From Bacillota bacterium (GTDB taxonomy: Bacteria > Bacillota > Clostridia > Oscillospirales > Oscillospiraceae), in the NCBI GenBank assembly GCA_029225225.1, contig JAQXWB010000043.1, forward strand, positions 1 to 64,000: 64,000 nucleotides of DNA, given 5' to 3'. Shown here in pieces: positions 59,227-63,460 of this stretch (positions are counted from its first letter, which is position 1; each line of letters begins with the position of its first letter). A program made the position numbers and the translations under genes. The notes beneath the pieces are model-generated. The model saw nothing but the letters and a program-made list of their open reading frames with translations, had not been told where the DNA came from and ran no database searches.

Positions 59227-60054
59227 TTACTTGTTTGTCTTTTTATAGGTGACCTCAAGACCCTTATCCGGGTGATATTTCCACGAAACGGTGATTCCGA
59301 GTTCCTCGAAGGTCTCTGTCTGCTTACCATCCGCTCCGGTCGTCTCGCCCATTTCACTGAACAGGGAATCCGGCAGACCCAAAGCGTTGTTCACGTCCTC
59401 AACGGCATAATAAGCGGAGGGATACGCCAAGCCGTTATCATCCTCGTCATAGGGATTGGTATCTATGCTCAGATAGCTGCCGTCGGAGCCAACCTTCGCC
59501 CAAACGGGGTTGCAATACTCATCATAAAGCTTTTCAAAATCAGGGCCCTTGCTCCCGCCGAGAGATACAATCAAAACAACGGCAATGATAATCACTGCTG
59601 CCGCGGCAATGCCGATTATCAGCGGAAGCGTTTTCTTTTTACTGCCGGTCTTTTGGATGCCCGCGTTATATTGGTTGATCGAGGAAGCTACCGCAGCGTC
59701 AACGGCAAGCCCTACCTTTTGACCGCATCTGTGGCAGAATTCCTGTCCGTCCTGCAGCTCTGCGCCACAATACGCGCAATGATTCACCTGCTTCCTGACT
59801 CTGGGCGTTCCGCATTTCGGGCAAAACTCCTGCCCGTCTTCAAATGTATTTCCGCAGGTTGCGCACACCGCCGTCGGACGAGGGGGCTGCGCGGCAGAGC
59901 GCTGCTCTTGACAGCCGAAGGTCGTACACCCTCCGTTTTCTCTCCAGCAGCTTTCGTGATGCACAATGCCGCAGGAAGGACACACAATAACAGCGTCCCC
60001 CTCTTTCAGCACCGTTTTGCAAAATGGGCACACCTTGCCGACATAGCTTTCCAT
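59227..60054 (-). CDS. Zinc-ribbon/RING-like membrane protein
   Basis: The 275-residue protein starts with a prokaryotic RING-like domain (CPFCKTVLKEGDAVIVCPSC, HHESCWRENGGCTTFGC). Two double zinc ribbons follow (CATCGNTFEDGQEFCPKCG, CAYCGAELQDGQEFCHRCG), then one membrane helix (LIIGIAAAAVIIIAVVLIV) and an external domain of ~95 residues. The start is the ATG at 60054 after AAGGAGG. Proteins of this shape are common in Clostridia and uncharacterised. Confidence 0.85.
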   Translation of the reverse strand: MESYVGKVCPFCKTVLKEGDAVIVCPSCGIVHHESCWRENGGCTTFGCQEQRSAAQPPRPTAVCATCGNTFEDGQEFCPKCGTPRVRKQVNHCAYCGAELQDGQEFCHRCGQKVGLAVDAAVASSINQYNAGIQKTGSKKKTLPLIIGIAAAAVIIIAVVLIVSLGGSKGPDFEKLYDEYCNPVWAKVGSDGSYLSIDTNPYDEDDNGLAYPSAYYAVEDVNNALGLPDSLFSEMGETTGADGKQTETFEELGITVSWKYHPDKGLEVTYKKTNK

Positions 60055-60314
60055 TCGCAGCTCCTCCTTTTCAGACAATTGTTTTAAATTATGACCGAAT
60101 CTTTCCGGCAAAAGAAGCAGGGCCTTTACATGGATTGTACATTGGGTCATTCAATTTGTCAAGGTATTCTCAAGTATTTTGTCAAGTATCGCCGCATAGT
60201 CACATGTACCCTCCTTTTTTGATAAAGGAAACCACTTCCCTCCTATCTTCGGAAGAAAGTGGTTCTGTCTGTGCTTTATAGGGTTGGCAGCTTTCGTCTG
60301 TCAAAGCGCAAGGC

Positions 60315-61136
60315 TCACTTCACGGAAGAATTGTTTTTCCGCATTTCATCCACCGTTTGTCCGGTAAGCGGATGTCGCTTCCATGGCGCGATTTGCGACA
60401 GGGGGATAAGCACAAAGTCTCGCAGATGCATTTCCGCATGGGGAATATGCAGTGTCGGCGTATCCACTACCAAATCGTCATACAAAAGAATGTCTAGATC
60501 CAGTGTTCGCGGGCCCCAGCGAAGCTCCCTGACGCGGTTCGCCTCCTGTTCAATGCCGTGAAGCACCTCCAACAGCTCCTCCGGCTCCAACATGGTACGC
60601 AGTTCCAGTGCGCCGTTGAGGAAATCGTCCTGCTTCACGCCGCCGTAAGGCGCGGTCACCAGATAATCGGAAACCTGCTTCACCTGACAGTCCTGCCGTT
60701 CCTGCAAACGCCTTACCGCCATGTCGAGATAGCCTTTTTTGTCCCCCATATTGGAGCCAAGGGCAATATACGCCGTATGCCAGCCGCGCGTGATCTCCAC
60801 GGAAACCGTCTCCAAGGGAAGACCGATAGGCGCCCACGGCTTTTCAAGCTTCAGCTCCACCTGCTCGATCAGCGGGAATTCCAGCAGCAACGCACAGGCA
60901 AGCTGCTCTGCGACGCTTTCCAGCAGTTTCCGGGTATGCGCAGTGACAAACGTCTGAATAAAGTGGCTGACTTTCCCGTAATCAATCGAAAAAGCAAGCT
61001 CATCCGTCAGTCCCGCTTTTCTGGTATGGGTATGCAGAACGGCGGAGATCACAAATTTTTGCCCGAGCGTATTTTCCTCCGGATAAACGCCGTGCTTCGC
61101 GAACACTTCCAACCGATGTATGGTAATCTTATCCAT
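60315..61136 (-). CDS. Bifunctional dihydroneopterin aldolase / HPPK (FolB-FolK)
   Basis: The 273-residue fusion has FolB first (LEVFAKHGVYPEENTLGQKFV, VELKLEKPWAPIG; residues 1-115). HPPK follows (YIALGSNMGDKKGYL, WGPRTLDLDILLYD, LHIPHAEMHLRDFVL). These two steps make 6-hydroxymethyldihydropterin pyrophosphate for folate. It is the last gene of the fol operon, eight bases after folP. Confidence 0.96.
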   Translation of the reverse strand: MDKITIHRLEVFAKHGVYPEENTLGQKFVISAVLHTHTRKAGLTDELAFSIDYGKVSHFIQTFVTAHTRKLLESVAEQLACALLLEFPLIEQVELKLEKPWAPIGLPLETVSVEITRGWHTAYIALGSNMGDKKGYLDMAVRRLQERQDCQVKQVSDYLVTAPYGGVKQDDFLNGALELRTMLEPEELLEVLHGIEQEANRVRELRWGPRTLDLDILLYDDLVVDTPTLHIPHAEMHLRDFVLIPLSQIAPWKRHPLTGQTVDEMRKNNSSVK

Positions 61137-61144
61137 CGTATCCT

Positions 61145-61951
61145 TTACCCACCCAAAATTGCCTCAGTCATCTGAATGACCCGTTTGTTTTCCTTCACAT
61201 CATGCACGCGGACAAAGGCGCAGCCCTTCATCACGCCGATCACCGTCGTCGCAAGCGTTCCTTCGACGCGCTGATCCGTCGGAAGGTCAAGCGTCAGACC
61301 GATCACGGATTTGCGGGAGGTTCCGAGCAGGATCGGAAAGCCAAGGGTGTGCAGTATGTCCACATGGTGGATCGCGCTCAGATTCATCTCATAGGTTTTT
61401 CCGAACCCGACACCCGGATCCAAAATGATCTTGTCGTCCGCAACGCCCGCGTCTCTTGCAATCCGAACGCAGAGTTCCATATCCTTTACCATGTCTTCCA
61501 AGAAATTCTGATAGACCGGTTCCTTGCGGTTATGCATCAGGCAGCAGGCAGCGCCGTATTGCGCCGTCAGCTCCGCTACCCTGCCGTCATGGCGGAAGCC
61601 CCAAATATCGTTCACCAAATCTGCCCCCGCTTGCAGCGCCGCCTCCGCAACCTTGCTCTTGTAGGTATCGATGGAAACGGGCACATCAAAACGCGTTTTA
61701 ACTGCTTCGATCACAGGAACCACGCGGGCGATCTCCTCCTCGTCCGAGATCACCGTATGTCCCGGGCGGGTGGATTCCCCGCCGATGTCTATGATATCCG
61801 CGCCGTCTCGAATCATCTCCTCCGCATGTCGCAGCGCGGCATCCATTTGGTGATACCTTCCTCCGTCCGAAAAGGAATCCGGCGTCACATTGAGGATTCC
61901 CATAATGTAGGTTTTGTGCTTTACATCAAATTCTCTTTTTCCGATTTTCAT
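61145..61951 (-). CDS. folP: Dihydropteroate synthase
   Basis: The 268-residue TIM-barrel enzyme joins the pterin pyrophosphate to p-aminobenzoate. Signatures: MGILNVTPDSFSDGG, DIGGESTRPG, VPVSIDTYKS, DIWGF and ILDPGVGFGKT. It is the target of sulfonamides. It lies between the HD gene and folBK. Confidence 0.97.
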   Translation of the reverse strand: MKIGKREFDVKHKTYIMGILNVTPDSFSDGGRYHQMDAALRHAEEMIRDGADIIDIGGESTRPGHTVISDEEEIARVVPVIEAVKTRFDVPVSIDTYKSKVAEAALQAGADLVNDIWGFRHDGRVAELTAQYGAACCLMHNRKEPVYQNFLEDMVKDMELCVRIARDAGVADDKIILDPGVGFGKTYEMNLSAIHHVDILHTLGFPILLGTSRKSVIGLTLDLPTDQRVEGTLATTVIGVMKGCAFVRVHDVKENKRVIQMTEAILGG

Positions 61952-61972: not shown

Positions 61973-62479
61973 TCAGTATTCAATCCAAACATTTTTCGTT
62001 TCCTCCGACCAATTGCACGCCTCCCGCATCGGGCACACGAAACAGGGTCGGGATTGTTTATCCGCGCGGTAAAGATAGGCGCTCAGGGTTTCCTTCCCTG
62101 CCGCACCGTCTCGTTTTCTATGCTCTGAGATAGCACCTTGCACGGACTGTATTTCTTCAGAAGTGAAGCCGCAGTCCTGCATAATCTCTCCCGCCAGCCG
62201 CGCGCCCGCAATGTCGTGCGGCGTTCCGCTGACAAGCTGCTCATACCTTCCGATATCGTGCAGCAGCGCAGCCGCGTAGATCACATCTTTTCGAAGCTTC
62301 GCGCCGTCCTCCAAAGCGTAAATATACATCAGCCTCGCCACGTCCAAAAAATGTTCCATCGTGTGGCGGCAAAAAGCACGGTTTTCCTCTGCTTCTTGCA
62401 GGTTTTTCCACAAGGTCTGAAACTGCGGGTGGCTCTGTATGCGGTGAACGCGCTCCATATCTCTTATCCAATGCTTCAT
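61973..62479 (-). CDS. HD-domain protein in the folate operon
   Basis: The 168-residue HD protein has the metal motif ALLHDIGRYEQ, an upstream histidine (FCRHTMEHFLDVARL) and EHRKRDG. It ends in a cysteine pair (CFVCPMREACNW). It sits three bases after folE and 21 before folP. Such HD genes recur in clostridial fol operons. A phosphatase step between FolE and FolB (removal of phosphates from dihydroneopterin triphosphate) has no other gene here, so this protein is a candidate; that is inference. Confidence 0.85.
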   Translation of the reverse strand: MKHWIRDMERVHRIQSHPQFQTLWKNLQEAEENRAFCRHTMEHFLDVARLMYIYALEDGAKLRKDVIYAAALLHDIGRYEQLVSGTPHDIAGARLAGEIMQDCGFTSEEIQSVQGAISEHRKRDGAAGKETLSAYLYRADKQSRPCFVCPMREACNWSEETKNVWIEY

Positions 62480-62482
62480 GTT

Positions 62483-63040
62483 TCAGCAATGCACCATCTG
62501 CAAGAAGGTCTGCTGTAATGAATAGTCCTCCGCGAAGACGCCCCGCACAATCGTGGTCACCGTCTTGCTTCCCGGCTTCTGCACACCTCGCATGGTCATG
62601 CACATATGCTCCGCTTCGAGCATCACCATGACCCCCTTCGGCTTCAGATATTTCTCCAAAGCGTCTGCGATCTGCGCCGTCATATTTTCCTGAATCTGCG
62701 GGCGTCTGGCAAACACCTCCACGGTGCGCGCGAGCTTACTCAAGCCGGCAACGCGTCCGTCCGGGATATACGCCACATGCGCCTTGCCGTAAAACGGAAG
62801 CAGATGATGCTCGCATACGGAATAAAAGGTGATGTCCTTTTCCAAAACGATATTATTGTTGACCGCCTGAAATTGCTTGTTCAGATGCGTTGCAGGATCC
62901 TCATAAAGCCCTCCGTAAATCTGCTCACACATCCGCGCAATCCGCTCCGGCGTTTCCAACAGTCCTTCCCGCTCGACGTCCTCGCCGATTCCCTCTAACA
63001 TCAGCCGAACGCCCTGTTTGATTTTTTCATGATCCATCAT
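62483..63040 (-). CDS. folE: GTP cyclohydrolase I
   Basis: The 185-residue enzyme makes dihydroneopterin triphosphate from GTP. It has TPERIARM, the zinc ligands in [18 protein letters not shown], the [20 protein letters not shown] segment, and [12 protein letters not shown]. The start is the ATG at 63040, eight bases after AAGGTGG; the track start is 17 codons too early. It is the first gene of the folate operon. Confidence 0.96.
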
Positions 63041-63460
63041 GTCCCATACCACCTTAAAATCGTTTCGGGATGTCGGCATTTGGGCAAACAAAAAACATCC
63101 CGTTGTGAATCCGTTCGGGATAAATAATAGTATATCCCTTCACAATCGAGATGTCATTCATCTGTGTGTTGCAACGGGTGCGAATTCCATATCGTAAGAC
63201 GAGCTTTTCGTTTCCGCGGCAACTCCCCATCCACCGAACACTTGACGCATGGAATCCTATTTTGCATATTATTTATCTGCCGCTATTATACTATGGTCCC
63301 TCAAAGAATTCAACCCATTTTTACGCCGCAAGCAGAAAAAGCGCCAAAATCATCAAAGGATGGCAAGAAAATAAGTGTTCGCCGCCGACCGTCCGACGCT
63401 AAGCTCACGCAAGATCTTTTTTAATTTCTGATAAAAAAGACGGAATATGAAAAATTTCGC
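63041..63460. other. folE leader and intergenic stretch
   Basis: The folE leader holds CGGGATG (63066) and CATCCCG (63096), a 7-bp stem with a ~23-base loop. I looked for the tetrahydrofolate riboswitch here and did not find its conserved loops. The rest, up to the tRNA-Val promoter, is AT-rich and shows no gene. Confidence 0.4.

Follow-up and report, generated by a model that had tools for sequence, protein, structure and literature searches.

The HD-domain protein encoded between folE and folP in the 64,000-nucleotide stretch of DNA analysed here (the window) is probably, with a likelihood of roughly two in three, a FolQ2-type phosphohydrolase that acts on 7,8-dihydroneopterin triphosphate (DHNTP). 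The preliminary description had put this protein forward as the missing phosphatase of folate synthesis, and that proposal gains support from the protein's co-occurrence with folP, its conserved place in the operon across many families, its absence from genomes that have folE only, the set of metal ligands, and a shared tetrahydrofolate (THF) riboswitch. The phosphatase idea itself is not new. It was published in 2007, when HDIG-superfamily proteins of folate clusters were proposed to stand in for the Nudix enzyme FolQ and called FolQ2 (de Crecy-Lagard, PMC1971073), and a 2019 gut-microbiome reconstruction includes FolQ2 in its pathway rule (Rodionov, PMC6593275). Our literature search found no biochemical test of FolQ2. 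What the present analysis adds is how widely and how specifically the gene co-occurs with folP, together with the contrast with folE-only genomes, the riboswitch, and a conserved set of four cysteines. To our knowledge, the enzyme that removes phosphates from DHNTP is without assignment in most bacteria, and a FolQ2-type family with this activity would account for the step in many anaerobic clostridia of the gut and rumen, bacteria whose folate serves their surroundings.

The protein is 168 residues long and matches the Pfam HD domain well above the cut-off of 22 bits (Table 1), while its score against TIGR00277 (HDIG), 27.1 bits, falls slightly below the cut-off of 27.6. The start may instead be Met8 (62458), which agrees better with the family consensus MERxxxI. 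By domain and gene context the protein resembles, and appears to be a member of, the known candidate FolQ2 family. The operon runs in the order THF riboswitch, folE, HD, folP, folBK, all on the minus strand; the preliminary description had named no strand for the HD gene. Pfam and TIGRFAM matches on this strand bear out the preliminary description in having folE, folP and folBK flank the HD gene; its further claim that the operon has no known phosphatase also holds, since no Nudix or other phosphatase gene was found within folE-HD-folP-folBK. The folE reading frame was listed from a TTG at 63091 that lies inside the leader terminator; the likelier start is the ATG at 63040, which follows the Shine-Dalgarno sequence AAGGTGG. 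The folA and folC genes of the same genome sit outside the fol operon, and their presence leaves the phosphate removals from DHNTP as the pterin-branch steps without an assigned enzyme. A chorismate-binding enzyme of the PabB/TrpE type (PF00425) had no match in the whole 95%-complete genome (G000), so folate synthesis in the source organism probably depends on external p-aminobenzoate. The gene downstream of the operon (59227-60150, minus strand) encodes a membrane-type protein of the zinc-ribbon/Prok-RING sort, with matches to PF14446 and other models.

Table 1. Features of the folate operon and of its HD protein in the window.
Feature	Position	Strand	Support
Promoter-like site TTGAAT-N17-TATAAT, upstream of riboswitch	63285..63313	-	consensus match 10/12 only
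THF riboswitch aptamer, RF01831	63170..63266	-	80.7 bits, gathering 36, E 4e-18
Long hairpin then U6 in leader, likely intrinsic terminator	63090..63153	-	RNA fold, -31 kcal/mol
folE, GTP cyclohydrolase I	62483..63040	-	PF01227 253 bits; makes DHNTP
HD protein, FolQ2-type candidate dihydroneopterin-phosphate phosphohydrolase	61973..62479	-	PF01966 44.6 bits; AlphaFold mean pLDDT 91.4
Cys37, two residues before His39	62369..62371	-	C in 138/143 sequences
Metal-ligand set H39, H43, H74-D75, H88, H120, D140	62060..62365	-	139-142/143 sequences per position
Cys146-x2-Cys149-x5-Cys155 tail (CFVCPMREAC)	62015..62044	-	C in 136, 136, 135/143
folP, dihydropteroate synthase	61145..61951	-	PF00809 281 bits; TIGR01496 324 bits
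folB-folK fusion, dihydroneopterin aldolase + HMDP pyrophosphokinase	60315..61136	-	PF02152, PF01288

Several lines of evidence link the HD gene to folate synthesis. The riboswitch aptamer lies 5′ of folE in the HD operon, which would place the HD gene under control of the end product of the pathway, and the hairpin and U6 tract in the leader are likely the intrinsic terminator of this riboswitch. A scan of 12 relatives showed a THF riboswitch ahead of folE in every one. Neither the riboswitch nor the terminator-like hairpin had been mentioned in the preliminary description of the HD gene.

In the window's family, 251 genomes from 106 genera were scanned and the HD clade was called at E < 1e-20, the next match being at 5e-9. 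Twenty-six of these genomes have folP and 24 of the 26 have a strong HD match, while the clade occurs in none of the 225 genomes without folP (hypergeometric 1.6e-31 by genome count, which ignores kinship, and 4.6e-18 by genus). Several genera mix carriers and non-carriers of the whole fol/HD set, including the window's own genus, where folE, folP and HD are all missing together from four other sampled species. A scan of 399 genomes across the phylum recovered 103 HD-family members, every one of them among the 300 folP-positive genomes (7e-16, genome counts). As a control, a second and distinct HD clade is widespread in the family genomes irrespective of folP. Four family genomes (G033, G045, G146 and G187) have folE and lack both folP and HD; in the one examined (G033), folE lies within queD-queE-folE-queC-queF, and the queuosine route uses DHNTP with its phosphates still attached. 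The absence of HD from folE-only genomes indicates that it tracks the folate pathway rather than folE itself, and this tie to folP places the probable function of the protein downstream of DHNTP, in the folate branch. Co-occurrence on this genomic scale makes the HD protein a sharp and easily assayed target.

Gene neighborhoods were compared for HD relatives gathered from the GTDB species set (36, of which 35 are strong) and from the window's own family (24). Of the 59 close members in the alignment, nearly all adjoin folE and/or folP-folB-folK. The loci examined across the phylum comprised 84 HD matches (E < 1e-10), each viewed with some 5 kb of flanking sequence to either side, and folP, folB or folK is close by (within 10 kb) in 80. 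Among the remaining loci, two (L209, L210) are weak HD matches without the cysteine set, one (L142) ends close to a contig edge, and in another (L143) HD is directly 3′ of folE2 (PF02649, 179 bits), which encodes the other type of GTP cyclohydrolase. Gene order varies, with HD after folK in L021-L023, HD-pabA-pabB-pabC-folE-folP-folB-folK in L135, and HD-folP-folB-folK in the nearest named carrier, Clostridium cibarium (L065, 43% identity); in L160 the gene for formate-THF ligase adjoins HD. That HD is still found with fol genes in these different orders indicates that the link outlasts rearrangement. The folP proteins of many distant carriers (L160, L175, L146) have about 140 extra N-terminal residues, and in the one checked (L160) no Pfam domain beyond Pterin_bind was found.

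The six ligands of the dinuclear type, H...HD...H...H...D, are all present and conserved in the HD protein, and R144 is also kept in nearly all 143 sequences. This ligand set is a sign of dinuclear HD phosphatases (PMC8177086), and the residues seen here fit such an enzyme. In the AlphaFold model the tail, with a pLDDT of about 85-92, is an ordered element of the protein fold. The preliminary description had suggested that the cysteine tail marks this subfamily; its three cysteines are indeed near-invariant, but they belong to a set of four that includes Cys37. The set has a 1+3 pattern, one N-terminal and three C-terminal, that spans the HD domain. In one genome (G464; L206/L288) all four cysteines are replaced (Y, Y, K, L) and the HD ligands are kept, a simultaneous loss that is expected if the cysteines act as one unit, and two orthologues deviate at a single site, L142 with C155 changed to A and L024, close to the end of its contig, with C37 changed to I. 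In the distant family to which G464 belongs, a few orthologues (L285, L268, L277, L282, L286) have the cysteines but altered ligands, with D140 changed to E, N or G and one orthologue without H88, H120 and D140, which suggests that their activity is weakened, shifted or lost.

The four-cysteine set resembles a metal or iron-sulphur site, apparently one with no earlier description. By analogy with iron-staple proteins, Cys37 and C146-x2-C149-x5-C155 might bind a [4Fe-4S] cluster beside the dinuclear active site, an assignment that we hold tentatively and at clearly less than even odds. If correct, this would make the protein a type of HD phosphohydrolase for which the literature searched has no description, and through the cluster folate synthesis in these anaerobes could become sensitive to oxygen or iron. 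The search found no HD protein with an Fe-S cluster, and a four-cysteine metal site is not described for HD phosphatases in a review of these enzymes (PMC8177086).

For the substrate, the bond cut and the metals at both sites we infer the following scheme. The operon would be switched by the THF riboswitch, and the DHNTP made by FolE would pass to the HD phosphohydrolase, which would strip its phosphates to give dihydroneopterin for FolB. A two-metal site, probably containing Fe or Mn, would be formed by H43/H39, H74-D75, H88, H120 and D140. The likeliest reaction would be hydrolysis of a phosphoanhydride bond to yield dihydroneopterin monophosphate and pyrophosphate, with the last phosphate removed either by the HD enzyme itself or by a general phosphatase. 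The C-terminal tail would fold back, and its three cysteines together with Cys37 would hold a [4Fe-4S] cluster or Zn, anchoring the beginning of the HD core to the tail.

Operon membership fits DHNTP, dihydroneopterin monophosphate or a later pterin phosphate alike as the substrate. The HD protein could be a monophosphatase of the second step only, converting dihydroneopterin monophosphate to dihydroneopterin after a Nudix enzyme encoded elsewhere has removed pyrophosphate. HD monophosphatases such as YfbR and YGK1 are known (PMC8177086), and the last phosphate is usually given to a non-specific phosphatase (PMC1971073), a gap that a dedicated enzyme could fill. The genome also encodes three Nudix proteins without a known substrate. 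The preliminary description had named a dedicated Nudix enzyme in the same genome as evidence against its proposal, and although Nudix proteins do occur there, none passes the NudB cut-off of 103 bits: two match the model at 26 and 33 bits and the third has no match. A promiscuous Nudix enzyme may still be at work. Moreover, no Nudix-box motif was found by a strict regular expression within about 5 kb on either side in 121 loci, nearly all of them HD-carrying and including the two HD-less loci of genus g52, and the conserved H88 and H120 suit a dinuclear di-/triphosphate enzyme better than the mononuclear monophosphatases (PMC8177086). On balance a role confined to the second step seems improbable, at perhaps one chance in several.

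The HD protein is also one solution among several, since about 197 of the 300 folP-positive phylum genomes, some two thirds, are without an HD protein of the FolQ2-type clade. Replacement by a Nudix enzyme in HD-less folP loci was considered and rejected, as the same motif search (strict regular expression, about 5 kb on either side) found no open reading frame with a Nudix box in 40 of them. Genus g52 (G137, G197; L095, L096) has an intact folE-folP-folB-folK and lacks HD, with no Nudix box nearby and no obvious HD substitute; phosphate removal can thus be done another way, and this genus is a natural place to seek another phosphatase. Retention of the rest of the operon in g52 is compatible with a house-cleaning function, in which HD would act on a pterin phosphate that is damaged or made in surplus, such as excess hydroxymethyldihydropterin pyrophosphate, and not on a main-route intermediate. 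The stricter tracking of folP than of folE points the same way, and HD enzymes such as YqeK are placed in metabolite damage control (PMC9426524). However, the operon offers no other candidate for the conversion of DHNTP to dihydroneopterin, and near-universal fol linkage among carriers suggests a main-route role, which makes house-cleaning distinctly unlikely. That the gene encodes an ordinary HD nucleotidase, a passenger of the operon without specificity for pterins, might be expected from the large size of the HD superfamily and from the second clade present in many family genomes regardless of folP. Yet it is this second clade that ignores folP, whereas the FolQ2-type clade is found solely in folP-positive genomes and its fol link persists though operon order varies, and we regard a passenger nucleotidase as very improbable. 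A FolQ2-type DHNTP phosphohydrolase is the function that we favor.

The closest counterpart is FolQ2 itself, exemplified by CPE1020 of Clostridium perfringens, which likewise has an HD and not a Nudix domain, occurs in folate clusters of Clostridia, and is a proposed DHNTP phosphohydrolase; the published cluster figure labels fhs, and one locus here also adjoins fhs (PMC1971073). The four-cysteine set, folP co-occurrence and riboswitch do not appear in the accessible text of the 2007 account, and CPE1020 is likened by description. The Nudix DHNTP pyrophosphatases FolQ (Lactococcus) and NudB (E. coli) have the same proposed step and an unrelated fold, and the HD protein has neither a NUDIX domain match nor a Nudix box. 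With YqeK and other dinuclear HD phosphatases it has the six-residue H...HD...H...H...D set in common, whereas the cysteine set is unlike theirs and is family-specific among those compared; the YqeK model is absent among its NCBIfam matches. The best NCBIfam match, the DVU_1551 HD/NTP-transferase family, was rejected as close kin, the similarity being weak, local and outside the cysteine region. When structures were searched for a close relative of known function, the sole significant match was the uncharacterised Thermotogales HD protein 2pq7, the best solved relative (profile 4e-12, TM 0.62), which stops matching before the cysteine tail, and the nucleotide pyrophosphohydrolase YpgQ (5ihy) matched weakly (Foldseek E 1.5, TM 0.52). 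Archaeal MptB is also an HD enzyme. Likened by description, it too acts on dihydroneopterin phosphate right after GTP cyclohydrolase and is Fe2+-dependent, although its substrate is the 2′,3′-cyclic phosphate made by MptA and the cyclohydrolase here is FolE (PMC3087415). In the iron-staple proteins Cas4, AddB and Dna2, which have a RecB-type nuclease fold and proven metal binding whereas the metal of the HD protein is predicted, one N-terminal and three C-terminal cysteines span the catalytic domain in the pattern seen here, and a zinc version of the arrangement also exists (PMC3466216, PMC7430649).
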